A stretch of 64,000 bases of DNA. Source: Devosia chinhatensis. GTDB lineage: Bacteria > Pseudomonadota > Alphaproteobacteria > Rhizobiales > Devosiaceae. Where the stretch lies: positions 1,178,001 through 1,242,000 of the forward strand of contig NZ_JZEY01000054.1 in the NCBI RefSeq assembly GCF_000969445.1, in the 5' to 3' direction. Positions 44,214 to 61,367 of this stretch are shown piece by piece. The notes beneath the pieces were generated by a model. That model ran no database searches, was not told the origin of the DNA, and saw only the letters and a program-made list of their open reading frames with translations. Within the stretch, counting starts at the first letter, position 1. Every line of letters begins with the position of its first letter. A program made the translations under genes and the position numbers.

Positions 44214-45224
44214 ATGAAAAGACTGGCCTTTCTCGGCGCCATGAACCGTGACCTCGTCGCGGAAATTTCCGGCGACATCGTGCTGCAAAAGCTCGATCTC
44301 GACGCGCGCCCGCTCGTCGAAACGCCCGTTTCCGATGCCATCGCCGCCGCCGGCGCTCGCCTGCTCGCCGGCTTGGGCGCGCACGACTACCTCGGCGGTT
44401 CCGCGTTCAACGCCGCCCGCGTCGCCGCCCTTCTGAATGGAGACGAGCGCAAACTCGACCTCGTCTTCTTTGGCATAGCCGGGCAGGTGGGGGCGTCCAG
44501 GCCCCATCTCGACGCTCTCGCGGCTTGGAACGTCGCCGGCGCCGGCATCACGCAAAGCCTGCTCTCGCCCGCAACCTGTCTTGCCATGGTGGAGCCGGCC
44601 GGCCGCACCCTCCTCACCGCCATCGGCGCCAATGCCGACATTGCCGATTATCTGCGCGACGAAGCAGGCAACCTCGCGGCGGACCTGGCCCGCTGCACTC
44701 TTGTCCACGTCACATCCTATCTCGATCCGTCCGCGCCGGGCCTTGTGGCCGACCTGCTCCAGCGCGCCCGTCGCCTCAATCCGGCGCTTCTGGTCTCGCT
44801 CGATCCGGGCATGGCCTGGATCGCCTCTGGCAGCCCCGACCTGCCGCGGCTCTTCGCCGAGGCCGACATTCTCCACCTCAATGCCGAGGAAAGCGCCCAT
44901 CTCTGCGGCGCCGACGCCGAGGCAATCGGGGCGCTCGCCGAAAAGCTGCATGGCTCGGCTGCAATGATCGTCGCGCGCAATCATTCCACTATTGCCATCC
45001 ACGAGGCCCAGCTCAGTCGGACCTTGCCGGATCGCGCCTTGCCGGCAACGGTCGTCGATTCCAACGGTGCAGGAGATACGTTTTGCGGCGCCTTTCTCTG
45101 GCGCCTGCTGGCCGATGATCCCGACCCGCTGGAGGCCGCGCGCTTCGCCTTTGACCTCGCCCGCCACAAGATCGGCACGAGCGGGCCCCTGACCAGCGAC
45201 AGCATCCGGCAATTGTTGAACTGA
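44214..45224 (+). CDS. PfkB-family carbohydrate kinase
   Basis: The 336-residue protein opens with KRLAFLGAMNRDLVAEISGD, and the ribokinase fold is marked by YLGGSAFNAARVAALL near the N-terminus and VVDSNGAGDTFCGAFLWRLL with the catalytic Asp near the C-terminus. The substrate (ribose, ketogluconate, nucleoside or other) cannot be told. It is the last chromosomal gene before the transposon: the likely transposon end begins seven bases after its stop codon, so its 3' end may be the target site recognised by the transposon. Confidence 0.88.
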   Translation: MKRLAFLGAMNRDLVAEISGDIVLQKLDLDARPLVETPVSDAIAAAGARLLAGLGAHDYLGGSAFNAARVAALLNGDERKLDLVFFGIAGQVGASRPHLDALAAWNVAGAGITQSLLSPATCLAMVEPAGRTLLTAIGANADIADYLRDEAGNLAADLARCTLVHVTSYLDPSAPGLVADLLQRARRLNPALLVSLDPGMAWIASGSPDLPRLFAEADILHLNAEESAHLCGADAEAIGALAEKLHGSAAMIVARNHSTIAIHEAQLSRTLPDRALPATVVDSNGAGDTFCGAFLWRLLADDPDPLEAARFAFDLARHKIGTSGPLTSDSIRQLLN

Positions 45225-45225
45225 G

Positions 45226-45314
45226 GTCCGATGTTCCAGTTTTCACTGAAATCATTGAGAAATCTGGATCGGTTTGATGTCCGATTTTCCCATCCTGCGG
45301 ATCACTTTTCCCTT
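45226..45314. other. Probable terminal region of the Tn7-like element
   Basis: A TGT start, as in Tn7-family ends, occurs at 45232 (TGTTCCAGTTTTCACTG), preceded by TCCGA as a possible 5-bp target duplicate. GTCCGATGTTCC (45226-45237) recurs as GTCCGATTTTCC at 45279-45290. A looser motif C..TTTTC.C appears three times (45236, 45281, 45301), as expected of multiple TnsB-binding sites. The partner end is outside the window, so the exact boundary is unproven. Confidence 0.4.
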
Positions 45315-45332
45315 TTTTCGCGCATCTAGCCA

Positions 45333-45361
45333 TAAAAAAAAAGACCACCGGAAAGGTGGCC
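45333..45361 (-). terminator. Terminator of the tns operon
   Basis: On the minus strand GGCCACC and GGTGGTC form a 7-bp stem (one G-U) with loop TTTCC, followed by nine T. It lies 31 bases after the tniQ stop and just inside the element. Confidence 0.88.
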
Positions 45362-45391
45362 TGTAATCGCTCATGAAGGTTAGATTTTAGA

Positions 45392-47218
45392 CTACACCGC
45401 TGCGGCCAGATCGGACCTGAGGAACAGGGTGATCGGCGCGTCACCGGTGTCCTGCGGGTGGACGCCTCGTTCGGCGAGTACGGCAATGACGTCGCGCGGT
45501 TGTACGCGTAAGGTCCGGGCCAGCTTGGTTCCGGTGATGTATTCGGCCTCGAAGCGATCGACCTCGGATGCGGGAATGGACCTGCGCCTCAGTCCTGTTT
45601 CGCGGTTGAGCCGAGTTTCGGACCGGAACATTCCCATCTCTACCAGCGCATGACCAGCACTGGATCCGATGCCGCAGCGCCGTGCGAACTGGGCAGGTGA
45701 AAGGAACTCCATCGAGTTGCTCTCGCCCGGAGACAACAGCCCAAAGACAGCATCGAGTTCGACCACGATGGAGGGATAGGGTTTCTCGTTGATCAGGCGC
45801 CAGACTTTGATGCGACCTTGAACGATGGCATCGTGCAAGGCAGGGAGAGCGCCCGGGACGCGGCTTGGAATGTCAACGATGGACAATCTGCCCTCATCAG
45901 TGGCGTTGCACGGCTGGGCCGACGCCAGCATGCTGGAGAACAGGTCCTTAACTTGCTGACGTCTGAGCCAGGGGAAGGCACCTTGCCTCGGACGCACTTC
46001 TCCAACAGGCACCAGGTGCCCGCCGGCGATCAACGATGCCATCGCCTGGGGAGATGCGCCAACATCGCGCCCGGCCTGCCAAGACGGCACCAAGCCGGCG
46101 TCCAATGCCATCCAACGCTCAAAGACGTCCGCGTCGACCCACGTGCCATGCTGGGGATGGAAGGCGCCAGCCAGCCGAGCAAAGGTTCGCGCCGTTGACC
46201 GACCGATGCCATGCTGCTGTTGAATGGTGAGGAGGGACTGCCAGCGACGCGACTTGGCCGATCCACCGAGCATGCGCCATGGATACTGGCCAAAGAGACT
46301 CCGCGATGCCGCCCCGGACATCGCATCGCGGATGGGGCCGTATGCGTCGTCATGGGTGCAGCGCTCCAGAAGGCCCCATACCTTGGGCATCAAGACCTTG
46401 GGCGAAACGGTGCTCCCCGCCGGGATGCGCGCGCCAAGCTCCTCCATCAACGCGGCCAAGGCATCCTCGCCGCCATCGAGCACGGTCAGGCCGGCGTTAT
46501 AGAGGCGATTAAGTTCAGGGCGCAGCAATCTGCGCTGGTTAGGGAGGCCATGGTTCAGGACGGCGTTCCCGACACGCCCGCATAACTGGATCGCGGGCAT
46601 CAAGGGGATGGCTCCGAGCAGAGGATGATCGGTGCCGCCACCTTCCATCCGGAGGCGTACGAATGCATCGAACGGCGAGGCGCCTGTCTGCAGCGACATC
46701 GCCGTCAACTCGGGCAAGCGGGCCGGGATATCGATGGTAGTCAGTGAGGTGTCGTGGTTGCCGGCGCGCCAGGGGCTGCGCCCGGCATGGACAAAGCTGC
46801 GACCATGAATGTGACAGCTACCGATCGCCGTTACGACATTATCGCGTCGAACTGCGATCGTCGCCTCTGGTGGCAGATGCGGTGCTGCCGCCATGTCTTC
46901 TGCAACGCATTCGGGGCAAACCCAAAGGTCGACGCGGTCCAGAAAGGCCGTGGACAACAACTGTCCGTCGATGAGGAAGCGTCGACCTGAGCGTACCGGC
47001 CCGTGCCCTAAGTCCTCGACGACCTGGCCGGTCAGATCGGCCAGCCCCTGCAGCTGATCCGGCCGGCCCGCCGAGATACCCTCGAATTCAAGACCGAAAT
47101 CGGTGCAGAACAGTTTGGCATTGGTGTACCGCAACCATGCGGCGAGCCTCGAAACGAAGCTGGCCGGAATCTCCATGTGCCGCAACCGCGGAGCGTTATG
47201 GCTTCGAAAGATGCTCAT
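45392..47218 (-). CDS. tniQ: TniQ/TnsD-family target selector
   Basis: The start at 47218 overlaps the tnsC stop (ATGA), giving 608 residues; the frame above it has no TniQ similarity. The N-terminal TniQ domain has IPASFVSRLAAWLRYTNAKL and a zinc site built from CPEC (101-104) and CHIH (134-137). The long C-terminal half has several helix-turn-helix-like segments, e.g. SPAQFARRCGIGSSAGHALV. The length exceeds that of short TniQ proteins and fits TnsD-type selectors that bind one chromosomal site. Its probable site is the PfkB kinase 3' end. Confidence 0.88.
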   Translation of the reverse strand: MSIFRSHNAPRLRHMEIPASFVSRLAAWLRYTNAKLFCTDFGLEFEGISAGRPDQLQGLADLTGQVVEDLGHGPVRSGRRFLIDGQLLSTAFLDRVDLWVCPECVAEDMAAAPHLPPEATIAVRRDNVVTAIGSCHIHGRSFVHAGRSPWRAGNHDTSLTTIDIPARLPELTAMSLQTGASPFDAFVRLRMEGGGTDHPLLGAIPLMPAIQLCGRVGNAVLNHGLPNQRRLLRPELNRLYNAGLTVLDGGEDALAALMEELGARIPAGSTVSPKVLMPKVWGLLERCTHDDAYGPIRDAMSGAASRSLFGQYPWRMLGGSAKSRRWQSLLTIQQQHGIGRSTARTFARLAGAFHPQHGTWVDADVFERWMALDAGLVPSWQAGRDVGASPQAMASLIAGGHLVPVGEVRPRQGAFPWLRRQQVKDLFSSMLASAQPCNATDEGRLSIVDIPSRVPGALPALHDAIVQGRIKVWRLINEKPYPSIVVELDAVFGLLSPGESNSMEFLSPAQFARRCGIGSSAGHALVEMGMFRSETRLNRETGLRRRSIPASEVDRFEAEYITGTKLARTLRVQPRDVIAVLAERGVHPQDTGDAPITLFLRSDLAAAV

Positions 47219-48246
47219 CGGTTCGCCGCCTTCCAGCTGGCCAAATCCATCGAGAGCGTCTCCTGCATCAACCGTGTCCGATCGGTCGTGTGCCAACTCC
47301 CGATGATAAATGGGTTCTGGTCGTCGACGGCCTTGGTGGCCAATCGGTAGCGTGCTGCGAAGTCTGCCTCTGCCACAGGACGGCGTCCGTCGTACCAAGC
47401 GCGCATGACGCTGGCCTGGCACAACTCGAAGGCAAGGCCCCTCGCGTGATCGGTGGCATGGATCAGCCTCTTGTAGAAGTCGTCGCCGGTGATGGCGTTA
47501 TCGATGCCGGCGTCGGCGCAGTATGAATTCACGGCAGTTTTCAACCGCTCGATCTCGCCGGGACTTCCCTGCACCATGGGAGCGATGTGCACGGGCGTGA
47601 TTTTCTCGTTGAGGAAAGCGTGGGCTGGTTCGTTCATACGTCGGTCAAGCTCGGGCAAGCCCATCAGGAGGATCGGTACCGGCCAGGCAACGTGATCAAG
47701 GAGATGACGGACAAACCCCAGCGTCGAGATCACCACTTCGGAACTTCGCGCGGCGGATACCCCGCTGGGCGCGAAAGCGTATTGGAACTCGTCCAAGATG
47801 ATCAGGGTCGGCCTGTGCACCGGCAGCTGGGTGTCCACGCGATTGTACGCCGCAGCCACCGGAAGAAGGCGCTTGGTGCCTTGGCCACCCATCATCGCCT
47901 TGAGAATGGAGTTGAACAGGAGGCCGTTGTTGAAGACGGAAGGGCATTCGACATAGATCGGTTTCGGGCGGATGACCTGGCCATCTACGGTTTGAACGTC
48001 TTCCAATCCGTTAGCCACTTGCTGCGCCAGTTCGGTCTTGCCGTGGCGCGTGAGCCCGGTGAGCATGACTGCTCGGCACTTGGCCCGGTTGCCTTCATCC
48101 CAAGGCTCGTCCGCGTCCTGTCGCACAGCTACGTTACGCGTGATTTCGCTCACGGCGTCCGCTGCCGCCGTAAGTTCGGGTGTGGGAAAGAAGTGCTGGC
48201 CCATAGCTTCGAGGACAGCGAGGTCGGAATTGCGGTCGTGCGTCAT
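47215..48246 (-). CDS. tnsC: TnsC/TniB-family AAA+ regulator
   Basis: The 343-residue ATPase has Walker A GLTRHGKTELAQQV (64-71 core) and Walker B TLIILDEFQYAFAP, where the DEFQ form is typical of TniB/TnsC. FNSILKAMMGGQGTKRLL lies between them. TnsC oligomers on DNA link the target selector to the transposase and enforce target immunity. The ATG at 48246 overlaps the tnsB stop (TGATG); a GTG one codon earlier is an alternative. Its stop overlaps tniQ. Confidence 0.9.
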   Translation of the reverse strand: MTHDRNSDLAVLEAMGQHFFPTPELTAAADAVSEITRNVAVRQDADEPWDEGNRAKCRAVMLTGLTRHGKTELAQQVANGLEDVQTVDGQVIRPKPIYVECPSVFNNGLLFNSILKAMMGGQGTKRLLPVAAAYNRVDTQLPVHRPTLIILDEFQYAFAPSGVSAARSSEVVISTLGFVRHLLDHVAWPVPILLMGLPELDRRMNEPAHAFLNEKITPVHIAPMVQGSPGEIERLKTAVNSYCADAGIDNAITGDDFYKRLIHATDHARGLAFELCQASVMRAWYDGRRPVAEADFAARYRLATKAVDDQNPFIIGSWHTTDRTRLMQETLSMDLASWKAANR

Positions 48247-50456
48247 CACTTGCGGTCCTTCTTCGGGCGATTACGTTTGAGGGGGGTGATCACCTCCACC
48301 GCCTCGGAGGTCGGCGGCTGAGGATCGGCCGCGGGCGGGCTGAGGGCCAAGCCGGATGTCGGGCTAGAGGCCGCTGTCGAGCGGGTGTAGACGGAGCCAA
48401 GCACGGCCGAGTTGCGGGTCAGCGCTGCCTCATCCCCAACGGGGTCGCGGTCGTAAAGCACGAACATCCGCAGATCGACTTCGAGTTTGTCGATCATGTC
48501 GGCCGTCCAATTGACGTCCTCGAGTTTGAAGAACTCTTCGGCCTGCTTGGCTTCGCGCTCGATGTCCAGCATCGCCGGCGCGATATAGGTGCGGAAATCG
48601 AGCCGGGCCTGGTCGCCGTGCCGGCGAGCGAGCTCATGGTTCTTTTCGACCCATTCGTCGAGCGTTACGCCCGCCATCTCGCGCGGACCGGGAACGGTGG
48701 TCCAGTCTTGGCCGAGCAGTACGCTGATATGGCCGAGATCCTGTTCGTCTACCTTGATCGGCAGATCCTTTTGCGGACCGTTCGCCGCCATATAGATGTC
48801 GAGCCAACCGGAATGGTAGATGAGGTTCATGAACCGGATGCCGGACCGGTTGAGGTCGCGCAGGAGCACCGTTCCGAAAGCCACGCGCATCTCGTCAGGT
48901 GTCGGCGCCGCCTTGGTTTGGATACGGCTCTGGATCTCCTGGAATTTGCGGGCAGGGGACATCTGCCCCTTCTGCCGCGCACGGAAGTGATAGACATCGA
49001 CGATGTAGCGGATCAGAAGCTTCATGAACTGCTCGACGAAAAGGCTCGCCCTCTGTTCCGGATCCTGCTCGTCGCGTCCCCTGGAATGTACATTGCTGCC
49101 TGTCCGGCCGGTCACCTGCGTGATGAAGCCCACGTCCATGGTCCGTAACAGGCGCTCGATCTGGCCGCGAAGGTTCGCTCGACCGGCCGCCGTGTAGGTG
49201 AGGCGATCGACGAGCGCATATGCAGTGCTCATGAAGGCCGAATTCCGATAGGCGCCGCCGGAGTCCGACTTCACCTCCTCGACACCGATGCGCATGTCCC
49301 AGTTGTCCTGGCAGCCGGCAGCCTTGGCGATGGCGGACTTGTCCGACATGGCCATGCGCAGGGCACTGCGGGTCAGCTCGGAATTTTCGGAAAGGCCTTG
49401 CTTGATGCCGACGATCGCCCCGCTGGCCGCATCCATGACGACGGCCAACGTCAGACGTACCTGAAGCTCCTTCACGTTGAAGAGCTTCTTGGCCTTCTCG
49501 TTGAGCAGGGTGAAGACGTGCGTGCTCCAGCAATCGTGCAGGGTCATCTCCCCGACGCGTTTGTAGCTCGGACCTTTTCCCACATGCTTGAGTTCCTGGA
49601 TCATTCGCTTCTTGCCGAGGCGACCGCCGATGACGACGGCTGCCGGCAGTTCAGCGATGGCCTTCGCGACGCCGTAGACGGTCGCGTCCGGGATCTGCTG
49701 CTCTTCTCCCAAGGCTGAGTTGAGCCCGAGGATATCGATGTTGATCCGCTCGCAGATCCCCCGAAGGGTCGGCTGCTTTTCGCTGGCATACTCCTCCACT
49801 CTCGACTTGATCACCGCCCAAGTGCGTTCGTGGATAGGCTTGCCGCCTTCGGCATGGCAGTTGCTGTGCGGCACCAACTTCCAGAAGTCGCGACCTGACG
49901 CCACCCACTTGTCGTAAAGCTTCATCAGCGTTTTCGCGCAGGGGCGCAGACGATCCGGGTCAACGTCACCGCTTTCGGCTTTCTTGCCCGGCGCCACGCT
50001 TCCGAATTTCTTTTTCTTGCGCGTTTGGCCGTGGTCAAAGCCGCTTTCTTCGCGGTACTGCTTCCAGCGTTCGACTACCTTGGCGTGCTTGCTTTCGATT
50101 AACGTGTCAAACTGGCCGCGGGAAACCTTCGAGATCGTGCCCTGCTCGAGACCCTCATCGACCACCTCCATCCAAAAAGACCTGATGAAGGCGGTATCCC
50201 GCTGGCTGGGCGTCAACGACGCAAGCGCCGCGAAGGACTGGACTTCGGCGATGAGAACCACGCGGTTGGCGTCCTTGAGCGTCTCATACTCTTCAGTCGT
50301 GAGGATGCGCGTCTGATGTGGCCTGCCCTTGCTCCGCAGCTCCCATCCAATGTCGGGCAGGGGGTTAGCAGCCCGCCACGGCACTCCATCGATGACCACG
50401 TCGACGTAAGGGGTGATCTCGCGGAAACGGATCGGGTTGAACTTGCTGGCCTTCAT
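48246..50456 (-). CDS. tnsB: TnsB-family DDE transposase
   Basis: The 736-residue protein is a Mu/TnsB-type integrase-fold transposase. The DDE triad is visible as AVVMDAASGAIVG (Asp 342), VKSDSGGAYRN (Asp 398) and GQIERLLRTMD (Glu 434), with the classical 35 residues between the last two. N-terminal helix-turn-helix domains (about 170-290) would bind the transposon ends. It cuts and joins the 3' ends. The gene begins 92 bases inside the end of tnsA, a long overlap, and is coupled to tnsC. Confidence 0.92.
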   Translation of the reverse strand: MKASKFNPIRFREITPYVDVVIDGVPWRAANPLPDIGWELRSKGRPHQTRILTTEEYETLKDANRVVLIAEVQSFAALASLTPSQRDTAFIRSFWMEVVDEGLEQGTISKVSRGQFDTLIESKHAKVVERWKQYREESGFDHGQTRKKKKFGSVAPGKKAESGDVDPDRLRPCAKTLMKLYDKWVASGRDFWKLVPHSNCHAEGGKPIHERTWAVIKSRVEEYASEKQPTLRGICERINIDILGLNSALGEEQQIPDATVYGVAKAIAELPAAVVIGGRLGKKRMIQELKHVGKGPSYKRVGEMTLHDCWSTHVFTLLNEKAKKLFNVKELQVRLTLAVVMDAASGAIVGIKQGLSENSELTRSALRMAMSDKSAIAKAAGCQDNWDMRIGVEEVKSDSGGAYRNSAFMSTAYALVDRLTYTAAGRANLRGQIERLLRTMDVGFITQVTGRTGSNVHSRGRDEQDPEQRASLFVEQFMKLLIRYIVDVYHFRARQKGQMSPARKFQEIQSRIQTKAAPTPDEMRVAFGTVLLRDLNRSGIRFMNLIYHSGWLDIYMAANGPQKDLPIKVDEQDLGHISVLLGQDWTTVPGPREMAGVTLDEWVEKNHELARRHGDQARLDFRTYIAPAMLDIEREAKQAEEFFKLEDVNWTADMIDKLEVDLRMFVLYDRDPVGDEAALTRNSAVLGSVYTRSTAASSPTSGLALSPPAADPQPPTSEAVEVITPLKRNRPKKDRK

Positions 50457-51270
50457 TCTCGATCTCTTCTGTCAGGGCATTGGCGATGATGGTGGCGTCG
50501 TCGATTTCTCCGGGCTCGACTTGTTGTAGGACGCCCTCGAAAATGAGCATGACCACTGTCCTGAAGACGGTCTTCGAGCCGCCCCAAGGCTTGGCGAACT
50601 CATCGATCGATGCCGGCTCCTTCATTGCTGCCGCAGCCCCAGCCATCTCGGCGTAGCACCGCCAATGGTGGTCGTTCCTCACCGACTGGATCAGGCGGTT
50701 ATTGGCGTTTGCCCATTGGGGAAGATCCTGTTCGGTGACCAGCTGGACCCGATCGGCGTCCTCGACCGGCATCTGATCGAGGATCAAACGATTGAGGGCT
50801 TCCGTTCCTTGTTTCGCGGCTCGACCTAACGGCTTCACGGAGACCACGCTTTTCGTGTGATCATCGAAAGACGCGCGCTGATCGAACACCTTGTAAGTGA
50901 GAAGACCTTCGGCATTCACGTAGTGGACCGGCCCGAACTGCGGTTCGAGACGGGTCACGGATCGGTCCGCCATGAAGCGGAGCGAAGCATTGAATTCGAG
51001 CTGGCTCTCGGCGACCTTGATCAGGCCATCGATCGGATCCAGGTAATAACAGGTCGACCGCCCGGTTGACTTTTCCGGCGCGATGGGGATGTCACGCGCC
51101 GGCGCATAAGACACTGGTGTTTCCGTGCGGGTATGCAAAGGGGGCGTCGCCATCGTAATGGTCGATCTGTCCGGTCCGAGTGCCGGATCCCATACGTGGG
51201 TGTCGGTCGTACCCGAACGCGTGACCTTCTTACTGCCGCGGGTGTTTCCCGGAAGGAGGTAGACGTTCAT
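50365..51270 (-). CDS. tnsA: TnsA-like endonuclease
   Basis: The 301-residue protein begins at 51270 with GGGAGG six bases upstream. Residues 80-150 follow the TnsA N-terminal nuclease pattern: VAESQLEFNASLRFMADRSV with the first Glu, then GLLTYKVFDQRASF with the Asp, and SVVSVKPLGR with the Lys, preceded by QFGPVHYVN. This restriction-like fold nicks the 5' ends so that the element leaves by cut and paste. The C-terminal part is unassigned and would contact TnsC. Sequence similarity to Tn7 TnsA is limited to the catalytic pattern. Confidence 0.78.
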   Translation of the reverse strand: MNVYLLPGNTRGSKKVTRSGTTDTHVWDPALGPDRSTITMATPPLHTRTETPVSYAPARDIPIAPEKSTGRSTCYYLDPIDGLIKVAESQLEFNASLRFMADRSVTRLEPQFGPVHYVNAEGLLTYKVFDQRASFDDHTKSVVSVKPLGRAAKQGTEALNRLILDQMPVEDADRVQLVTEQDLPQWANANNRLIQSVRNDHHWRCYAEMAGAAAAMKEPASIDEFAKPWGGSKTVFRTVVMLIFEGVLQQVEPGEIDDATIIANALTEEIENEGQQVQPDPFPRDHPLRRRGHRWSAVAGC

Positions 51271-51349
51271 GACCGCCTCCCTGAAGGATGGCAGGGCACT
51301 CGGTCATGGATTGTCGGGGCAGCGGATCGCAGATCCGCTCCCGCATGCC

Positions 51350-51481
51350 TTAAAACGCTTCCGGACGAACCCGTATCGACAAGCTCCGTCCGTTGACGGC
51401 AGCGGTGATCACCACAACGTCGGTGAGCCTGGTGACGGGGACCGAAATTTTGACCTTGGGATAATTACGCGTGGCGTTCAT
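51350..51481 (-). CDS. Very small protein upstream of tnsA
   Basis: The 43-residue frame starts at 51481 with TGGAG six bases upstream and ends 79 bases before tnsA. The sequence (MNATRNYPKVKISVPVTRLT, then DVVVITAAVNGRSLSIRVR) looks like one small beta sheet. No family is recognised. Co-orientation and a good ribosome binding site favour a real gene of the tns operon, possibly a regulator. Confidence 0.45.
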   Translation of the reverse strand: MNATRNYPKVKISVPVTRLTDVVVITAAVNGRSLSIRVRPEAF

Positions 51482-51488
51482 CAGTAAC

Positions 51489-51757
51489 TCCATTCCGACT
51501 GCGTGCGCTTGAGTGAGGCATGACGTGGCCGCCGTCCAATTGTGGCCAGCGGCGAGTGCATGGGCAGCACGGAATGGAGGTGAGCTAAATCGCCAGGAAC
51601 ATCGCCTGTACGACGGTCGTAACCCCACGGTCATTCCGTGCGCCGCCTAGCGATATGGTTTCCAAAGAGCTCATGCTCACCATCCTGCTTTCAGGGTCCT
51701 GTGAAACGTTGAAAGCCCACGTGCAATTTTTCTTAAAATGCCTAACCCACCCAACGG
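51489..51757. other. Gap in the tns strand without a gene
   Basis: About 270 bases between the 76-residue gene and the 43-residue gene show no convincing frame. The stretch probably contains the promoter for the tns operon on the minus strand. Confidence 0.4.
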
Positions 51758-51988
51758 TCACAGTTTTTCGAGCTGGTGGGCGTTCTTTCGTTCGTTTGGC
51801 AGAGGAAACGGCAGTACGCCGTCTCCGAGGCTCGGCTGCTCCAGCCCGGCCTTTCTTCCAGCCTCCACCTGGACGGTCCGAGCGATGGCGACCAGGGATC
51901 GTTGTGCCGCGTCTTCGAAACACTTCTGCCCCATTTCGTCGTGTACGCGAACGAGCCTAGTGATAATGCGGATCAGAAGATCATCCAT
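51758..51988 (-). CDS. 76-residue protein coupled to the FtsH-like protease
   Basis: The ATG at 51988 lies eight bases inside the protease gene's end (ATGGATGA), a typical translational coupling. The product starts DDLLIRIITRLVRVHDEMGQ and continues KCFEDAAQRSLVAIARTVQV, an amphipathic helical stretch, then a polar tail. No family is recognised. The coupling suggests it works with the protease, for example as an adaptor, inhibitor or substrate. Confidence 0.5.
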   Translation of the reverse strand: MDDLLIRIITRLVRVHDEMGQKCFEDAAQRSLVAIARTVQVEAGRKAGLEQPSLGDGVLPFPLPNERKNAHQLEKL

Positions 51989-53927
51989 GGCTGGCCACTC
52001 CCGACTTCGCGCCTGATCGGGTTTCGGCGACGATCTCGAGATACCGCTCGCCATCGAGGTACCTACGTTCGGCCAGCTCTTTGGCAACCGCTTTGATGAC
52101 CGGAATCTCGCCATGGCAGATTTCCAGGGCCCGAGCGTAGAGACGCTGAAGATCGGCCTCGACCTTTGCGGCCACGGCAGGATTCAACGCCAGCAGTTGA
52201 GGCACCTCTTCCGCGTTGCCATGGTAGCGGAGCGTTGCGCCCATCCCGATGCCGAGATGGACGAGTCCCAACACCTGCGTAGCTCGAGCGAGATCGCTGC
52301 GCGCGTCTCCGCCGGATCCGCTGCCGACGCTGCCGAGAACGGCTTCCTCCGCCGCGCGTCCGCCCAGGACGTGACACACGTAGCGTTCGATCGAGGCAAG
52401 AGTGATGGACCATTCTTCGCTGTCCATCCGCGTCAGCCCGCCCGTGATACCCCTCTCAATAACCGTCAAGCTGGTCACCGTGCCCAGTTTGACCGAGGTG
52501 CCAACGACGGCATGGCCCGCTTCATGTACGGCGATGCGGTGAAGCAGTTCCGGATTTCGGTTGTCGTCCGGCACCACGGCTTGCATCAGGTCCCGGAGAA
52601 GCATGCCGCGCTTGGCGGATCGAGCTGCCCTACGAGCAGCCTTGACCCAGGCGGCAACCTGCGCTCCGGAATTTCCGACAGCCAGGCGCGCGATCTGCGA
52701 GAGATCTTCGCCCGCAAGATCGTCACCAAGATGCTGACGGAAGATGCCCGCAAGGGCCTCGCTATCAGGTGCAGGGATCGTGATCACCCGGTTGAGACGC
52801 CCAGGCCTTACGATGGCTGGGTCTAATTTTTCAGCGTAGTTGGTAGCGCCGACAACGACGAGATTGCTCGTGTCGGAGGTGGCGCCGTCCAGAACGGTGA
52901 GCAGGTGGCCAATCACCGGCAACCACCAATCGGCGCCTCTAGGAGAGATAGTCTCTCTTGAAGGAATACCGTCGCACTCGTCTAAAAATAAGATCGCCGG
53001 AGCTACGGCGCGTGCCGAAGCGAAGACCTCATCGATCTGCTTGATGATGCTGTCGAGATATCCCGGCGAATTCGCAAACCAGGCACCCACCGACGTGGTG
53101 ATCAAAGGCAATCCGGTGCTGCGTGCAAGCGAGCGGGCGAACGTGGTCTTTCCCAAGCCGGGAGCTGAAGCCAGCACCACGTTGCGGTCGATGTCATGCA
53201 GCGAGATTTCGCCCCGACGCCAAGCATCGAGGTCTTCAACCAAGTTCAGCGCCCAGGTCTGCGCCTCTCCGTAACCGTGAAGCTCATGAACGTAGGGAAC
53301 GTCCTGCCCCATGTGCTCGACGCGGCGCTTCGATGCCGACGCCCTCTGGAGACGCTCGACGCATTCCGCCGGCGTCGAGTTCTGGCGGATGCATGTCGCG
53401 ATCTCGTCGAAGCCCAAGCCGGCGGCGAGCGTAGGAGGCAAGCTCTCCGGCAGTTTACCCGTCACCGCCTCGATCGTCTTACCGATGACGTTGGCGGTGG
53501 GGGCCGGGAGCGACACGATCATGTCCGCGGCCGAAATCAGCGCCGGGGGCAGTACCGCTTTGGGCGATTGAGAAATAGCGACGGCCCGTCCACCGGAACC
53601 CAGCGCCTTGACCAAGCCTTCTACGGTGGATTCGTCCTGGGCCTTACCGCGGCTGGCGACACTTCTGCAGATGCTGAAGTCCCATTCGCCCATTTCGTTG
53701 ATCGATTTCCAAAGAGGCACCACCCAGTCTGCGGCCGGCGCTTCCACCACCAGACACAACGTTTTATGGGCCGAGATCTTCGCGATCCCCTCGGCACCGA
53801 TGATGGTTTCGATCAAAGTTCGCGGCAGGATGTCGTGGGCCTGCGCGGCCGCCTTTTTGAATTTGTTCCTGTTTCTTGCGGGCTTGCTGTCTTCCAGCCC
53901 CACCAGGAAGTCGTCGGATTTAGCCAT
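51981..53927 (-). CDS. Soluble FtsH-like AAA+ zinc metalloprotease
   Basis: The 648-residue protein has a complete FtsH-type C-terminal half: Walker A SAPGLGKTT (254-262), Walker B AILFLDECDG (311-320), the second region of homology IVRPGRLNR, and a peptidase domain with HEAGH (468-472) and a third ligand in RSDLARAT about 77 residues later, the spacing of FtsH. It lacks the N-terminal membrane helices of FtsH. Residues 50-200 look like a second, degenerate AAA module (LPPALISAADMIVSLPAP without a P-loop). It lies upstream of tnsABC-tniQ on the same strand. Confidence 0.85.
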   Translation of the reverse strand: MAKSDDFLVGLEDSKPARNRNKFKKAAAQAHDILPRTLIETIIGAEGIAKISAHKTLCLVVEAPAADWVVPLWKSINEMGEWDFSICRSVASRGKAQDESTVEGLVKALGSGGRAVAISQSPKAVLPPALISAADMIVSLPAPTANVIGKTIEAVTGKLPESLPPTLAAGLGFDEIATCIRQNSTPAECVERLQRASASKRRVEHMGQDVPYVHELHGYGEAQTWALNLVEDLDAWRRGEISLHDIDRNVVLASAPGLGKTTFARSLARSTGLPLITTSVGAWFANSPGYLDSIIKQIDEVFASARAVAPAILFLDECDGIPSRETISPRGADWWLPVIGHLLTVLDGATSDTSNLVVVGATNYAEKLDPAIVRPGRLNRVITIPAPDSEALAGIFRQHLGDDLAGEDLSQIARLAVGNSGAQVAAWVKAARRAARSAKRGMLLRDLMQAVVPDDNRNPELLHRIAVHEAGHAVVGTSVKLGTVTSLTVIERGITGGLTRMDSEEWSITLASIERYVCHVLGGRAAEEAVLGSVGSGSGGDARSDLARATQVLGLVHLGIGMGATLRYHGNAEEVPQLLALNPAVAAKVEADLQRLYARALEICHGEIPVIKAVAKELAERRYLDGERYLEIVAETRSGAKSGVASHG

Positions 53928-54481
53928 GTCCTATCATCCGGCGGCCAAACGCGAACGCGCTCAGCTCGATGCCGGTCCTCAATGCCCGTTCCGGGCAGAT
54001 TTAGGGATGTCGGTTCGGTCGCTCAGTTCGAGCGTATGAGACCGGATAGGAGATGGCAGTTCGTGCGAACGCGATCTGCCGCCCCGATGGGGGCGGGTGT
54101 CATGCCGGCGATGTGCGCGTGGCGGGACATAGGCGTTCTCTCTTGGTATGCTGAACAGATAGTGAACGAGATGGTTCGTGTCAACACGCCGAAAAACTGA
54201 AATCTACCCAAGCGTCAAGAATGGGTAACCCCGAGGTAGGCTACCTCGAGGCCTGGATGGCCCATTGTGTCGGCAGCCCGTCCACCAGATTGGATGTCGC
54301 TTACGAAAAGCCCTGACAACATCATCTAGATTCTTAGCCGAAAATCCAAAGGCAAAAAAAGTCCAGCAATACAAAACCGACGATGTTAGACTTTTCCAAA
54401 CAGGCTCCGCTCCTTGCGATTTCCCGATGACCTTGGCGGCAGGAACTTGAGTTATCGATAGATGATCTTGGAGGGCGAAGT
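53928..54481. other. 554-base divergent intergenic region between protease and TerB operon
   Basis: No convincing gene is seen. The region must drive both the leftward protease and the rightward TerB operon. It contains CCGCCCC-GATG-GGGGCGG (54079-54096), the short inverted arms GTTCG-TG-CGAAC near 54059, and the hairpin at 54232. These dyads could be operators or transcript boundaries. Confidence 0.5.
54232..54248. other. Perfect inverted repeat in the divergent region
   Basis: CGAGGTA, GGC, TACCTCG form a perfect 7-bp dyad. No T run follows, so an operator is more likely than a terminator. It lies 234 bases before the TerB start. Confidence 0.4.
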
Positions 54482-56746
54482 TTGGAGTGGGTACTGATCG
54501 CTGGCGTCGTCCTTTTTCTACTGTCCAAGTTCGGCAAGAAAAATAAGCAGAAGGCCGCATCGTCGAAGAAGGCGAAGCGGGAACCCATCTTCATATCGGA
54601 CGTCGCTTCGGCCGCTCGACAAGGTTACGATCGTGGCCGCCGCAAAGCGCCAACCCCGGCACGGTGGGTCAAGTCTGGGGAAGCGGTCAAGGTTGGAAAC
54701 TGCGATATTGAAGCCGGCATGTTCTATGTTGGCGGCGTCCTTCCGGGCCAGGCTGAAGGGCGAAGTGGAAATTGCGTTGTCGATCCAACCTTGAAAGTAG
54801 CCTCGGTTGGGGGGGATCCAACCGGCGCATCGCTTTCGTACTGGCCTTCATACTTCAATGCCTCTCCCGCTTCACGGCGGACCTACTTGGAATGGTTGGC
54901 AGGCGGGCGCGACGAAGCCGAAATCGGAATCGGCTACGTCTTCTTGTTCTTCTATGGTTTGGAGCAACGACTATTCCATGACCGCGCTGTCGCGGAGGCA
55001 CCAGAGTTGATCGCGGAGGTTCAGCGCCTCCTGCACCTGCACGGGCACAACGGATCCTTTAAGCTGTACGCCACGAGATTCCTCGATGCCGCAGCACTGT
55101 GGGCTTCAGCTGCACCCGTTAAGCCGGATCTGTCTCCGGAACTGAAGAGCGGATACGAAATCCCTATGGCGGTCAGGGTGCATCTGGGCAGGAAGATCGC
55201 GGCCAAGACGCCTCTCGACGCCGGCGACGCTTTGATGTGGGTGCTTAGTCTACCGGACACCAACCTCAGAACCGCTGCGACGAGGTGTTTCGCGGAACTG
55301 GTACAGCTTTGGGAATATCGGTTCGCCGAAAAATACCCCGATGGACTAAAGGTAAATCCTCCGAAGACCCGCTTGAAGTTCGAATACCGAGCAGCCAGCG
55401 GCGGTTTCACGGCACAGATCGATGTGTCCGATACCTCGGGGCCTTTGCCCGACATCGCGGCCATTTCCGCACCCATCAGCAGATTACGCGACTTGTTAAG
55501 TGCTACGACCGAGGAACTGGCGCCGTACAGCAGGTTGTTGGGCAGAAAACCGGATGCTCTTGGGACATTAGATGCGGCGCTGCTCCTTCCGAAGGAGCTT
55601 GCAGTTACCTTCGCTGAGACAGAAGTGGGTCGGCGCGTCGAGCATATGCTTGGCGGCCGGAATGTCATCAGCGTGACCGTCGCGGAGCTTTCCAGCGCGC
55701 TGGCGCTGGACATTGAGGGGTTGGACAAAATCCCCACTACGATCAGCAATCAGATCGGCGGGTATCTAGATCACTTGGGCATCGGATACGAGCCAGATCG
55801 CCGGTATGGGTCAAGTCCTCTTCGTTCAGACGGGCAGGTTGTCATGTTCAGGGCCGCCGGTGGTGGGCAGGTGGACGGAGAGGCGGCAGCTTTTGTATCT
55901 GCGAGGGCTATGGTTGACGTCGCCGCACTGGCAGCAAGCGCTGACGAGAAGATCGATGGCAGCGAAATTGAAGCGATCACTACGGAAATCCGGAATGTAC
56001 CCGGTCTAGGAAAGGTGGAACGCGCACGTTTGATTGCGTACGCCAGCACCTTGCTCAAGGATACCTCCTCTCACCGTTTCGCTCTGAACAAGCTCAAGAC
56101 GCTTGACGCTGCGGCCAAACAGTCCGTCGTCCGATCTGCCACCGCGGCTATCATGGCCGATGGTCACGCCAGTCCCGCCGAGGTCAAATTCCTCGAGCGC
56201 TTGTACAAGTCCATGGGGCTTCCGGTGGACGACGTCTACTCGATGCTGCATCGTGGAGCGGTTGTGCTCGATGAACCGGTTACCGTGGCCCAGGAGCAGC
56301 GGACGCCGGGCATCGCCATTCCTCAAGAGCCTTCCGCAGCAAGATCGTCGAGCTCCATCCAGATCGACCACTTCCGGCTGGAGCGCCTGCGATCGGAGAC
56401 CTCGGCAGTGTCCGAACTGCTTGCCGGCATTTTCGTCGAAGAGGAAGCCGCCTCAGCACCGTCGACCGTCGTCGTGGCTGCAGCGCAAACAGCGGCCAGC
56501 CGGTTCACCGGGCTTGACGCTGCCCATGCCGGCCTCCTGGAGGAAGTGCTGCGGGATGGGAAGCTGAGCAGGGATCAGTTCGACACTGCAGCACGTACCC
56601 TGCGCCTACTGCCCGATGGTGCCATCGAGCGAATAAATGATTGGGGCTTTGACCAGTTCGAAGAGCCGATCATCGAAGGCGACGAAGAACTTACTATCGC
56701 CTCTCATATCTTGTCCGAACTCAGCGAAGCGGAAGTTGCAGCATGA
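54482..56746 (+). CDS. Membrane-anchored TerB-N/TerB/TerB-C protein
   Basis: The TTG at 54482 has GGAGG eight bases upstream and gives 754 residues. Residues 3-16 (WVLIAGVVLFLLSK) form one membrane helix, followed by a basic linker. The TerB-N domain (about 75-290) has YWPSYFNASPASRRTYLEWL and GIGYVFLFFYGLEQRL. A TerB domain (about 470-600) has two acidic helices, ASADEKIDGSEIEAITTEIR and MADGHASPAEVKFLERL, the metal-sensing type. The end (about 640-754) fits TerB-C. Such proteins are linked to helicases and ATPases in Ter-type DNA-processing systems. The stop overlaps the next gene (ATGA). Confidence 0.85.
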   Translation: MEWVLIAGVVLFLLSKFGKKNKQKAASSKKAKREPIFISDVASAARQGYDRGRRKAPTPARWVKSGEAVKVGNCDIEAGMFYVGGVLPGQAEGRSGNCVVDPTLKVASVGGDPTGASLSYWPSYFNASPASRRTYLEWLAGGRDEAEIGIGYVFLFFYGLEQRLFHDRAVAEAPELIAEVQRLLHLHGHNGSFKLYATRFLDAAALWASAAPVKPDLSPELKSGYEIPMAVRVHLGRKIAAKTPLDAGDALMWVLSLPDTNLRTAATRCFAELVQLWEYRFAEKYPDGLKVNPPKTRLKFEYRAASGGFTAQIDVSDTSGPLPDIAAISAPISRLRDLLSATTEELAPYSRLLGRKPDALGTLDAALLLPKELAVTFAETEVGRRVEHMLGGRNVISVTVAELSSALALDIEGLDKIPTTISNQIGGYLDHLGIGYEPDRRYGSSPLRSDGQVVMFRAAGGGQVDGEAAAFVSARAMVDVAALAASADEKIDGSEIEAITTEIRNVPGLGKVERARLIAYASTLLKDTSSHRFALNKLKTLDAAAKQSVVRSATAAIMADGHASPAEVKFLERLYKSMGLPVDDVYSMLHRGAVVLDEPVTVAQEQRTPGIAIPQEPSAARSSSSIQIDHFRLERLRSETSAVSELLAGIFVEEEAASAPSTVVVAAAQTAASRFTGLDAAHAGLLEEVLRDGKLSRDQFDTAARTLRLLPDGAIERINDWGFDQFEEPIIEGDEELTIASHILSELSEAEVAA

Positions 56747-58062
56747 GCACCTCGACACCTATCAAGCCGCGTGAGCGCGACGTAATTCTCCAGGCGCTGT
56801 CTGCTGGCGTCGTTCCGCGCGCGGGTCTTCGACATGTCCAGGTCGGTCGCGCCGCCGAGATCGGCGCCATGGTCCGCGACATCGACCGCATTGGCGACAG
56901 TGGCTCCGCCATTCGCTTCGTCATCGGTGAATACGGCGCCGGCAAAACCTTCTTCCTAAATCTGGTGCGCCTGATCGCACTCGAGCGCAAGTTCGTCACT
57001 ATCCACGCGGACCTTGCCCCCGACCGCCGCGTGCATGCGTCTGCCGGTCAGGCCCGCGGCCTCTACGCCGAGGCGATACGGAATATGGCGACCAGGACCA
57101 AACCGGATGGCGGTGCCTTGGGCAGCGTGGTCGAACGCTTTGTCACCGACTGCATGAACGATTCCGCTCAACGCTCGGTGCCGGTGGAAACCGTCATCGA
57201 CGAGCGCCTGGCTGGGCTTCAGGAGCACGTTGGCGGCTACGACTATGCCACGGTGCTCAAGGCCTACTGGCGCGGTAGCGAGGCCGGCGACGAGGTGCTG
57301 AAGGCCGCCGCTCTGCGTTGGTTGCGCGGTGAGTACTCGACCAAGACCGAAGCTCGGCAGGCGCTCGGCGTTCGGAACATCATCGACGACGGCGACGTCT
57401 ACGATGCCCTCAAACTCATGGCGGCGTTCGTGAAGCTGGTCGGGTACTCCGGCCTGCTGATCGTGTTCGACGAGATGGTGAACATCTACAAGCTCCAGAG
57501 CAGCCAGGCCCGCAACCAGAACTACGAACAGATCCTGCGCATGGTCAACGACGTTCTGCAGGGCAACTTTGGTGGAATCGGGTTCGTGTTCGGCGGGACA
57601 CCGGAATTCCTCATGGACACGCGCCGGGGGCTCTACAGCTATGCCGCGTTGCAGTCTCGCCTTGCTGAGAACTCATTTGCCCGGAACGGCCTGGTCGATC
57701 TATCGGGCCCGGTTCTGCGCCTGCAGAGCCTAACACCCGAGGACCTGTTGATCCTCTTGTCCAACATTCGAACCGTTTTCGCTTCCGGAGATGCCCAAAG
57801 GCATCTGGTTCCCGACGAGGCGCTTCCCGCGTTTATGGAGCATTGCAATCGTCACGTTGGCGAAGCGTATTTCCGCACGCCGCGCAACACCATCAAGGCC
57901 TTCGTGCAGTTCCTGGCGGTGCTGGAGCAGAACCCCGGGACGCAGTGGACAGATCTGATCAACGCCATCGAGATCGGCGCCGACATCGAGGCCGCAAACG
58001 ACGTCGCGGATGAAGGCGAACAGGGGGCCGGGGATGACGAACTCGCCTCCATCCGTCTCTGA
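56743..58062 (+). CDS. BrxD-like P-loop ATPase (DUF2791)
   Basis: The 439-residue protein has Walker A GEYGAGKTFFLN (about 62-73) and Walker B LLIVFDEMVNIYKL (about 238-251). FGGTPEFLMDTRRGLYSYAA is the conserved segment after the second strand. This is the DUF2791 family, known as BrxD in type 2 BREX loci and found beside Lhr-like helicases in other defence loci. It begins at an ATGA overlap with the TerB gene, and the helicase start lies inside its end, so the three are made together. Confidence 0.87.
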   Translation: MSTSTPIKPRERDVILQALSAGVVPRAGLRHVQVGRAAEIGAMVRDIDRIGDSGSAIRFVIGEYGAGKTFFLNLVRLIALERKFVTIHADLAPDRRVHASAGQARGLYAEAIRNMATRTKPDGGALGSVVERFVTDCMNDSAQRSVPVETVIDERLAGLQEHVGGYDYATVLKAYWRGSEAGDEVLKAAALRWLRGEYSTKTEARQALGVRNIIDDGDVYDALKLMAAFVKLVGYSGLLIVFDEMVNIYKLQSSQARNQNYEQILRMVNDVLQGNFGGIGFVFGGTPEFLMDTRRGLYSYAALQSRLAENSFARNGLVDLSGPVLRLQSLTPEDLLILLSNIRTVFASGDAQRHLVPDEALPAFMEHCNRHVGEAYFRTPRNTIKAFVQFLAVLEQNPGTQWTDLINAIEIGADIEAANDVADEGEQGAGDDELASIRL

Positions 58063-60265
58063 TACCCTGACCAGCTTCGACCGGCTGCATCCCGAAATCC
58101 GTCGCTGGATATGGGAGCAGAAGTGGGAGGAGCTTCGGGACGTTCAAGATCGCGCCATCTCCGCAGTGCTGGGTGGGGATGGCGATGTCCTGATCGCCGC
58201 CGCTACTGCAGCCGGGAAGACCGAGGCCGCGTTTCTGCCGGTGCTGACCGCCGTGGCCGATCGAAAGGAACGCGGGTTCTCCGTGCTTTACGTCAGCCCT
58301 CTCAAGGCACTGATCAACGACCAGTTTCGGCGACTCGATCAGCTGTGCGAGCGCCTTGAGATCGAGACGGTGCGCTGGCACGGCGATGCGCCGCAGTCCG
58401 CGAAAGATCGCGCTCGAAAAATCCCGCGCGGGGCTATCCTGATCACCCCGGAATCCATCGAAGCCATGCTGATCCGGCGTCCAGGCGATGCGCTCAAGAT
58501 GCTCGGAACGCTGGACTTCGTCGTCATCGACGAACTGCATGCCTTCATGAAGGGGCCGCGTGGGCTGCATCTGGCAAGCCTGCTCCGGCGGTTGGACGCG
58601 CTCACCGGCAAGCGAGCGAGACGGGTGGGCCTGTCTGCGACCATCGGGGACCTCAAGTTGGCGGCCGCCTGGATCAACCCGGAGCAGCCGGACACCGTCA
58701 GCATAGTGGAGTCCGCATCGGATGCTCCCGAACTGCGATTGCAGATCCGGGCATATTCCGACCCAGTCGATACGGATGATATTGATGGCCTGGAAGTCGA
58801 CGGCAAGCCGATCGCGCTCGATTACATAGCCGACCACATCTTCAAGAACCTGCGTGGCTCCAACAACCTTGTATTCGCTGGATCCCGCAGACGGGTCGAA
58901 GCGGTTGCCGACCGGCTTCGCACTCGATCCGAGAATGCCGACGTGCCCAACGAGTTCTTTCCGCACCATGGCAGCCTGTCCAAAGAGCTGCGAGAGGAGC
59001 TTGAGGCCAGGCTCAAGAAAGCCGAACTTCCAACTACCGGCGTAGCCACTACCACCTTGGAGCTGGGCATCGACATAGGGTCCGTCACATCCGTGGCTCA
59101 GATCGGCGCGCCCCGCTCGATCGCTTCGCTTCGGCAGCGGCTTGGTCGCAGCGGCCGCCGCCGTGGCGTTCCTGCGATCCTGCGCATCTACGTTCGGGAG
59201 CGCAACCTGGGGTTGGATTCGTCTCCGCTGGACCATTTGCGCCTTGAGGTCGTGCGGGCCGTGGCTGCCGTACGTCTGATGATCGAAAAGTTCGTGGAGC
59301 CGCCAGTCGCCGAGACGGCTGTAGCTACGGTCGTTCTACACCAGACGCTTTCGGTCATTACCCAACTCGGTGGCTCGCGAGCGGACCGACTCTATGCGAT
59401 GGTATGCGGCAGTGGCCCGCTCTCGGCATTCTCGAGGTCCGACTATGCCGGCCTGCTACGCGCCATGGCGACGCCAGAGCTTGCTCTGATCGAACAGGCC
59501 CCGGATGGCACTATCATGCTGGGCGAGCAGGGCGAACGGTTGACGGCCGGCCGAGATTTCTACGCCATTTTCGCGACCGACCAAGAGTGGAAGCTGATTG
59601 CCGGTGGCCGGACGCTGGGTACAATTCCGATCTCGAACCCAGTGGGGGTGGGCGGAATTGTTTCGTTCGCCGGTCAGCGCTGGAAGATCACCACAGTTGA
59701 TGATCCGGCCAAAGTGCTCGAGGTGGCGCGACACGCCTCAGGAAAAATCCCAAAGTTCGATAGCCTCGCCAACGAGCCCGTCCATGACAGGCTTGCTGTG
59801 ATGATGCGGAGCGTTTTGGTCGACGGCGATGCACCTTCATACTTGGATGCGCAGGCAGCAGAATACCTGTTCTCGGCTCGGGAGACTTTTCAGCAACTCG
59901 GTCTGCGCGATGCAAGCCTCCTGGCCGATGGCCGCAACACGCACGTGTTGACATGGACCGGAACCGAGATGAACTCGGTGCTGGCGTTCGCCCTAACCGC
60001 TGCTGGCTTGGACTGCGAGGTGCTGGATATCGGGTTAACGGTGCTGGAAACCACGCCTGATACCGTGGCGGCCTTCCTTGAGCAGATCGGGCACGCATCA
60101 CCCCCGATCCAGGACATCGCCGATTTTGTCGAAAATCTTCGGACGGATAAGTTCGACGAACTTATCCCAGAGGAAATGCTGCGTCGACTTTGGGCGAATG
60201 CTCACGTCGCACAGTCATCGAGGCTCGCCGGCGTAGCTCGCCGACTCATCGGTTTGAGTACATAA
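58034..60265 (+). CDS. BrxHI/Lhr-like SF2 DEAD-box-type helicase
   Basis: The start at 58034 overlaps the ATPase gene by 29 bases, with GGGGG upstream, and gives 743 residues. Helicase motifs are AATAAGKTEAAF (I), VSPLKALINDQF (Ia), VVIDELHAF (II, DELH), GLSATIGD (III) and QRLGRSGRRRG (VI). The C-terminal 300 residues lack the full Lhr extension and match the shorter BrxHI type. It would translocate on DNA using ATP and probably supplies the nucleic-acid-acting step of the cargo system. No nuclease domain is seen in it. Confidence 0.88.
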   Translation: MTNSPPSVSDTLTSFDRLHPEIRRWIWEQKWEELRDVQDRAISAVLGGDGDVLIAAATAAGKTEAAFLPVLTAVADRKERGFSVLYVSPLKALINDQFRRLDQLCERLEIETVRWHGDAPQSAKDRARKIPRGAILITPESIEAMLIRRPGDALKMLGTLDFVVIDELHAFMKGPRGLHLASLLRRLDALTGKRARRVGLSATIGDLKLAAAWINPEQPDTVSIVESASDAPELRLQIRAYSDPVDTDDIDGLEVDGKPIALDYIADHIFKNLRGSNNLVFAGSRRRVEAVADRLRTRSENADVPNEFFPHHGSLSKELREELEARLKKAELPTTGVATTTLELGIDIGSVTSVAQIGAPRSIASLRQRLGRSGRRRGVPAILRIYVRERNLGLDSSPLDHLRLEVVRAVAAVRLMIEKFVEPPVAETAVATVVLHQTLSVITQLGGSRADRLYAMVCGSGPLSAFSRSDYAGLLRAMATPELALIEQAPDGTIMLGEQGERLTAGRDFYAIFATDQEWKLIAGGRTLGTIPISNPVGVGGIVSFAGQRWKITTVDDPAKVLEVARHASGKIPKFDSLANEPVHDRLAVMMRSVLVDGDAPSYLDAQAAEYLFSARETFQQLGLRDASLLADGRNTHVLTWTGTEMNSVLAFALTAAGLDCEVLDIGLTVLETTPDTVAAFLEQIGHASPPIQDIADFVENLRTDKFDELIPEEMLRRLWANAHVAQSSRLAGVARRLIGLST

Positions 60266-60452
60266 CCGGATTGGCGGTCGCCTCCCAATTCTATGAAATT
60301 GACTCATGGACAGTTTTGTCTGACATGTCGGAACCGATGACTTTTCCATGTCGACCAAGTCTGTGATCTTGCTCAACACACCAAATTTTCTTGGGTGTCT
60401 CATCCAAAGAATTCGAGGTCGGTTTTGTCGATTTCCGGTAATCCGGGTGGGC
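60266..60452. other. Convergent gap with IS-end-like repeats
   Basis: Between the helicase and the DUF5677-like gene, GACAGTTTTGTC (60309-60320) and GACATGTC (60322-60329) form two adjacent palindromes, and CATGTCG recurs at 60347. This looks like a remnant end of an insertion sequence or a bidirectional terminator region. No gene is visible. Confidence 0.35.
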
Positions 60453-61247
60453 CTAAGTTTGGCCATGTTGAGAAGTACGCGCTTCAAGCAGTTGTGTCAT
60501 CCGGGCCGTCGTTCTTTCCAACGTCTCTGCCACAGCATTGAGCGCGAATCCGCATAGATCATATTGGAACTCAGAAATTGTCGCGAAATCGATGCCATGC
60601 ATCTCGGCTCGCAGAAAGCTCATCGGCATCGAGTGCACGTACCCTGAAAAATAGGCCTCGTAAAAATCGTATTCCGCCTTGTCCCAGCCGATAAGCTTTA
60701 AGGCTCCCCGAACGCCACCAACATAGAAGTCGCGGCCCTCTAGAAGGCGCGAGCGCACCTCTGTAGCTAGTGCTGCGAACGCGGGCATCGAATCGAGTTC
60801 CGTTCGAAGCTCGGCGATCTTTTGCCGATAAAGGTCACGCATTTCCTTGACGTCTGGTGCGTGAGCCTCATGGTGTTTGAACATTCTAGAGCGGTGACAG
60901 GTATCGTGGAGCTGAAACACCTTCCTGCGCATATCGAACTCAGCTTCGCTCAAGTTGGGATCGCTTACGTAAAGCATCATCACACCTGCCTCGACCGCAG
61001 TTCGCGCGATTGACGCTACTGAGAAGTGATCTAGAAGTTGCGCTCCCGAACCTGAATCTGTTGCCGCCTCTATGACTTTGATCATGGAGCCACTGTTCAT
61101 AATCACGCGAGCGTGGAGAATTGATCCCCATATGCCCTGCCAGTTCGATAGTTGACCTATCGCCTGTTCAGAGAGTGAAACGGCACTCTGAATTTGTTTC
61201 TCACAATCATGGCGGCCTTCAATAAACATTTCCGTTGGTTGCGACAT
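60453..61247 (-). CDS. DUF5677-like helical protein
   Basis: The start at 61247 has GAGGAG ten bases upstream, giving 264 residues. The protein is helical: SMIKVIEAATDSGSGAQLLD, then VASIARTAVEAGVMMLYVSD and HDTCHRSRMFKHHEAH. The pattern of a family-protein with an R-T-x-x-E helix and a later YFSGYVHSMPMSFL segment resembles DUF5677 and related proteins seen in accessory islands. Function is unknown. It points against the neighbouring cargo genes, so it is its own transcription unit. Confidence 0.5.
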   Translation of the reverse strand: MSQPTEMFIEGRHDCEKQIQSAVSLSEQAIGQLSNWQGIWGSILHARVIMNSGSMIKVIEAATDSGSGAQLLDHFSVASIARTAVEAGVMMLYVSDPNLSEAEFDMRRKVFQLHDTCHRSRMFKHHEAHAPDVKEMRDLYRQKIAELRTELDSMPAFAALATEVRSRLLEGRDFYVGGVRGALKLIGWDKAEYDFYEAYFSGYVHSMPMSFLRAEMHGIDFATISEFQYDLCGFALNAVAETLERTTARMTQLLEARTSQHGQT

Positions 61248-61367
61248 CCGAATACAACTCCTCAATCGCCCACCCACGAAGATCCCGGGGATCCATTCCG
61301 AAAGCAAGACCTCAGGAACGCCGACTAAGCTCCGGACGGATCAGCGGTATTGATCGCTTGCTTTTCG

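Follow-up and report, generated by a model that had tools for sequence, protein, structure and literature searches.

A soluble tandem-AAA+ M41 metalloprotease is encoded on a Tn7-like transposon of Devosia chinhatensis, and the association of this protease with Tn7-like elements is real and much stronger than could be shown by one window (here the whole 64,000-nucleotide stretch of DNA that was analysed). The reading we favour, held with a confidence somewhat short of even, is that the gene is a swappable mobility accessory, whose product would unfold or degrade a protein that controls the movement of the element. The transposon and its genes, numbered from the first letter of the window, are as follows.

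45214-69764 (window part 45214-64000), no strand assigned: Tn7-like transposon, 24,551 bp (genome coordinates G000:C54 1223214-1247764)
45214-45310, plus strand: left end with repeated transposase-site-like motifs at 45222-45237 and 45275-45290 (direct repeats TGAGGTCCGATGTTCC / TGATGTCCGATTTTCC)
45392-47422, minus strand: tniQ, target selector, long form, ORF of 676 aa (Pfam TniQ, E = 1.9e-07, above cut-off)
47215-48249, minus strand: tnsC, AAA regulator (Pfam AAA_22, TniB)
48246-50456, minus strand: tnsB, DDE transposase (PADLOC TnsB, E = 6.5e-12)
50365-51270, minus strand: tnsA-like gene, directly before tnsB, no Pfam match
51758-51988, minus strand: small partner ORF, 76 aa, its first 8 nt shared with the 3' end of the protease gene
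51981-53927, minus strand: soluble tandem-AAA+ M41 metalloprotease, ORF of 648 aa
54482-60265, plus strand: Shango cargo (sngA 54482-56746, sngB 56743-58062, sngC 58010-60265)

The protease gene lies inside a transposon with defined ends. The inverted ends, TGTTGAA...CCGATGTTCC, are of the TGT...ACA form found in Tn7-like elements, are situated at 45214 and 69764, and are flanked on both sides by GCAAT, ie a 5-bp target duplication. Between the left and right ends (TGTTGAACTGAGGTCCGATGTTCC and TGTTGAAACGGATACCGATGTTCC) 18 of the 24 terminal bases match. The repeat motif alone did not locate the far end, which was found via the empty site and the duplication. The empty site, with pfkB next to tRNA-Arg(CCT) and the insert absent, is present in six Devosia relatives, the tRNA being identified by ARAGORN in five and by alignment in one. 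The target tRNA-Arg(CCT) at 69787-69863 starts 22 bp past the right end and, as judged from this one insertion, integration appears to be site-specific. At 45200-45224 the neighbouring pfkB gene runs into the transposon, whose end provides its final codons and its stop; the target duplication is at 45209-45213. Inside the right end (about 69527-69600; L172:5527-5600), the minus strand carries a degenerate tRNA gene copy with a CCA end, approximately 190 bp from the intact target.

The genes for TnsA, TnsB, TnsC and TniQ are all present, TnsA being assigned by position and family profile only. An alignment of 20 sequences shows no variation at the DDE residues of TnsB (D308, D398 and E434), and an iterative HMM of the tnsA-like family recovers members in the equivalent position of other elements. 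Through a winged-helix domain at the C terminus, that iterative profile also drifted to other proteins encoded before the protease, and TnsA counts were therefore not used as evidence. The protease gene is on the tns strand, as the initial annotation had it, and lies upstream of tnsA. The 76-aa ORF matched no Pfam family; it accompanies the protease in 35 loci, some with and some without tns genes. The Shango genes were recognised by PADLOC (SngA, E = 9e-86; SngB, E = 9e-175; SngC, E = 1e-247), and the remaining cargo includes a Mokosh-like helicase and the PADLOC candidate system PDC-M23.

The protease consists of a degenerate AAA module (residues 28-206), an active AAA module (about 210-455) and a protease domain (about 460-645), and its matches to Pfam AAA (251-385, E = 2.5e-24) and Peptidase_M41 (464-627, E = 1.9e-15) both exceed the curated cut-offs. 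The initial annotation described an intact Walker A and B, second region of homology, HEAGH motif and third zinc ligand; all of these residues are indeed present and nearly fully conserved in 109 non-redundant relatives. The Walker A lysine (K260, in GxGKT), Walker B D316-E317, sensor N363 and arginine fingers R374 and R377 are invariant in 109/109, the HEXXH motif (here HEAGH; H468, E469 and H472) is intact in 106/109, and the third zinc ligand, D545, is found in 105/109, the other four having an alignment gap at that position. Conservation of this order would point to selection for ATP-driven unfolding and proteolysis. Three members (L146:7129-9147, L150:4497-6566 and L089:8870-11374) have lost HEXXH and kept every ATPase residue, which suggests that they may be unfoldase-only versions. 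No membrane helix was found in the protease, again as first described: its best 19-residue hydropathy is 1.57, versus 2.26 in the housekeeping FtsH of the same genome. That membrane FtsH is 31% identical to the transposon protease, over the core.

The AlphaFold2 model of the protease has a mean pLDDT of 87.7 and a pTM of 0.73. Residues 205-635 of the model match FtsH (3kds) with Z = 22.8, and residues 31-453 align to the tandem-AAA proteins Rix7 and p97 over about 400 residues (Z about 21). When residues 28-206 were folded alone with AlphaFold2 the pLDDT was 95 and the pTM 0.88, and the best 50 matches in each of two aligners (Foldseek and VIA-align) were AAA+ proteins; the top VIA-align match was the AAA domain of Bcs1 (Z = 8.5, rmsd 3.5, 161/179 residues). 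This module has no Walker A motif and no P-loop lysine. Since it combines a predicted AAA+ fold with the loss of Walker A, its original description as a degenerate second AAA module was correct. The order predicted by the models is degenerate AAA, active AAA, M41 protease.

The link to Tn7-like elements, proposed from this one window together with a search for the gene beside tnsABC-tniQ in other genomes, could be measured across the genus. A TnsB profile scan of 61 Devosia genomes gave 37 places with a long-type TnsB, three of them cut by contig ends. The protease or a remnant of it lies within about 10 kb of 28 of the 34 testable loci, where chance would give about 0.3 (some 90 protease copies in about 240 Mb). 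The genome scan for the protease was seeded by a set of 10 sequences, an alignment of 29 relatives being too diverse as a seed. The usual order is protease first, then tnsA-B-C-tniQ on the same strand, with some loci divergent. Most of the testable full-length TnsB loci in the wider order also have the protease (exceptions L152 and L153). An ordinary passenger, performing stress proteolysis for the host and having no function in the element, is a very improbable description of such a gene. General quality-control roles are common among AAA+ proteases and the family is seen in several contexts, but the association with tns genes is far above chance and the genome keeps its own membrane FtsH. 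Counting against a mobility accessory, the six remaining Devosia loci do without the protease; five of these six have a short or partial TniQ match. The protease is also absent from all four TnsB relatives of about 547 aa found in Devosia. Classical Tn7, too, does without such a protease.

The protease gene also lies within three further elements whose ends score above background (21,054 bp with CTGAT; 24,355 bp with TCCAC; 44,368 bp with a 4-of-5 duplication). Besides the present element ten were searched for ends, and most of them showed no convincing ends against the background (best chance score 21). The D. chinhatensis genome has a second copy of the protease gene, 46% identical to the first, in a second Tn7-like locus (L099, G000:C54 about 305,000-314,000) with a small ORF and a full tnsA-B-C-tniQ set; the ends of this locus were looked for and not found.

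The protease is not confined to Tn7-like elements. In the 6 kb that follow the protease gene on its own strand, TnsB is encoded at 36 of 110 loci, a tyrosine recombinase at 18 and both at none; upstream on the same strand the corresponding numbers are one for TnsB and two for tyrosine recombinases. In loci with no tns genes nearby, a tyrosine recombinase often takes the tns position. The R-HxxR-Y signature is conserved in these recombinases, and in several loci of one clade the recombinase start overlaps the protease stop (-3 to -22 nt). Because the gene also stands in front of an unrelated DNA-moving enzyme, it probably helps to control the movement of mobile DNA and is not random baggage. 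By parsimony the 53 labelled tips require seven switches between TnsB and tyrosine recombinase, whereas shuffling gives about 16; some of the nodes are weakly supported. At another 50 of the 110 loci the downstream sequence extends for 6 kb and no recombinase was recognised there on the protease strand; the protease gene can thus live without one, a point against the mobility reading. At L045:12642-18101 the protease and small ORF are followed by three adjacent large ORFs that resemble recombinase trios, the first being a weak tyrosine-recombinase match. Tandem protease pairs with a TnsA-profile (winged-helix) protein between them are present at L056, L106, L108 and L109, and no tnsB was found at these four loci.

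The protease has been exchanged between elements as a module. In 32 complete loci its tree distances correlate with those of TnsA, TnsB, TnsC and TniQ at a Spearman coefficient of only 0.06-0.19, values that shuffling also reaches; for the Tns proteins among themselves the coefficient is 0.77-0.94. In three Bradyrhizobium loci the proteases are 0.13-0.14 apart and the TnsB proteins 2.6-3.8 apart; the large tree distances are saturated, the close protease pairs are not. These data bear on the suggestion in the initial annotation that the protease does for TnsB what ClpX does for the Mu strand-transfer complex. As an element-borne replacement for ClpX, it would take the TnsA/TnsB/TnsC strand-transfer complex apart once insertion is over and thereby allow gap repair. 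The position 5' of tnsA in most elements of the lineage and the predicted tandem-AAA unfoldase fold are in keeping with this, and there is a precedent in E. coli, where PseCAST-dependent phage propagation falls about 200-fold when clpX is deleted and where disassembly of the post-transposition complex has been proposed as the task of ClpX (PMC12326709). Nevertheless, closely similar proteases occur with TnsB proteins that differ extremely from one another, the trees show no correlation, the same gene precedes tyrosine recombinases, which form no strand-transfer complex of that kind, and host ClpX would normally be at hand. A role dedicated to TnsB is weakened by the lack of co-divergence, itself a weak proxy, and by the tyrosine-recombinase loci, and we consider it improbable. 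The fixed place before two chemically different recombination systems, together with the exchange, fits better with a general mobility accessory, for instance one that governs a repressor, the level of the recombinase or a host barrier.

The initial annotation had also reckoned that occurrence in unrelated contexts would speak against its proposal. The Tn7 link stands, but it is not exclusive: plasmid relatives, with about 31-42% identity, lie in island-like surroundings beside metallophosphoesterase or GIY-YIG genes on the plasmids examined, and such neighbours would also suit a defence module. According to that explanation the protease is an effector, or a remover of host defence proteins, and the nearby recombinases mark a hot spot for cargo acquisition. 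Defence genes typically are swapped, as this module is, among plasmids and different kinds of element, the neighbours include relatives of PADLOC candidate-defence proteins (GIY-YIG-like PDC-S14 and phosphoesterase PDC-S10), Shango is cargo in the same transposon, and there is a weak AAA similarity to IetA and TRIP13. That similarity is limited to the AAA core (NF042959, 67.9 bits against an NCBIfam cut-off of 510, so that the protein does not reach the curated score for the IetA-class ATPase of the IetAS system), and a function shared with these defence ATPases was dropped from consideration. The fixed position and strand 5' of recombinase genes (54/110 loci) and the frequency at Devosia TnsB loci would not be expected of interchangeable cargo, and we regard a defence or counter-defence role, including the anti-restriction function suggested in the initial annotation, as rather unlikely.

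Several other proteins adjoin the protease. A calcineurin-like metallophosphoesterase does so at 18 loci of the main set (for example L041:8780-9712) and on three of five plasmids examined (L204, L206 and L207). In a protease clade without tns genes, the protease is preceded by a protein with a winged-helix-like start, a GIY-YIG-like middle and a weak DUF4357 end (L128:15055-16404 and about 23 further loci). Small proteins of the DUF6634 family are direct neighbours in several clades (L052:9378-9701, L112:15081-15422 and others). In a loose first look at 349 genomes sampled from the phylum, the N-terminal module did not turn up outside this order. Phage FtsH-like matches were rejected as relatives, their 26-28% identity, which extends over no more than about two thirds of the query, being judged ordinary AAA/M41 similarity.

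A mobility accessory of the kind we favour might work as follows. The architecture would be p97-like, with an FtsH protease attached and the membrane anchor absent: the inactive D1 (residues 28-206) precedes the active D2, which would feed the M41 zinc protease chamber, presumably in a hexamer capable of proteolysis. Protease and small partner belong to an exchangeable accessory module, sometimes with a winged-helix protein, a DUF6634 protein or a phosphoesterase, and the module sits 5' of the recombination genes, ie tnsABC-tniQ in Tn7-like elements and tyrosine recombinases in others. The partner may choose or deliver the substrate, acting as an adaptor, and the target would most likely be a protein that restrains the element or sets the timing of its movement, for instance a repressor of the element, the recombinase or a host factor. 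More tentatively, the protease could be a common unfoldase or licensing protease for both DDE Tn7-like and tyrosine recombinase machines, spread by module exchange in the Hyphomicrobiales. If that were so, which we put no higher than a reasonable possibility, an element-encoded tandem-AAA+ metalloprotease would be a new class of mobility factor.

Mu and Tn7-like CASTs rely on a host unfoldase to complete transposition. With an AAA+ protease supplied by the element itself, this dependence and its control would become directly testable. Should the protease help Tn7-like insertion, it might be a natural accessory for the DNA-insertion tools whose activity is at present raised with ClpX. That a single protease module has been swapped between recombinases of two unrelated types also points to an undescribed shared control step in mobility. 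A full-text search of the open-licence literature, which is not proof of absence, gave no paper linking an FtsH-like protease with Tn7-like elements.

Compared to FtsH and the i-AAA and m-AAA proteases, the transposon protease has the same AAA core with the second region of homology, the same HEXXH and third Asp ligand, and a matching predicted structure (3kds, as above). It differs in having no N-terminal membrane anchor and no extracytoplasmic domain, and in its extra N-terminal degenerate AAA; its score of 153 bits is well below the FtsH equivalog cut-off of 600 (TIGR01241). Two AAA modules in tandem are shared with p97/Cdc48, Rix7 and NVL, but in the transposon protein the first module has no Walker A and the second is followed by a fused protease domain. 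ICEBs1 is controlled by ImmR and ImmA, the latter a HEXXH metalloprotease that is carried on a mobile element and governs its mobility. ImmA is not AAA+, and for the protease described here any repressor partner would be putative. ClpX is likewise an AAA+ unfoldase linked to DDE transposons, in Mu and the type I-F CAST (PMC12326709). The host supplies ClpX, which has one AAA module and ClpP as its partner, whereas the present gene is on the element and its product carries its own M41 protease domain. Finally, the element has the features of Tn7-like transposons, ie tnsA-tnsB-tnsC-tniQ, the DDE residues, a 5-bp duplication, insertion beside a tRNA gene and defence cargo, and is distinguished from them by the AAA+ protease gene and small partner ORF ahead of tnsA.
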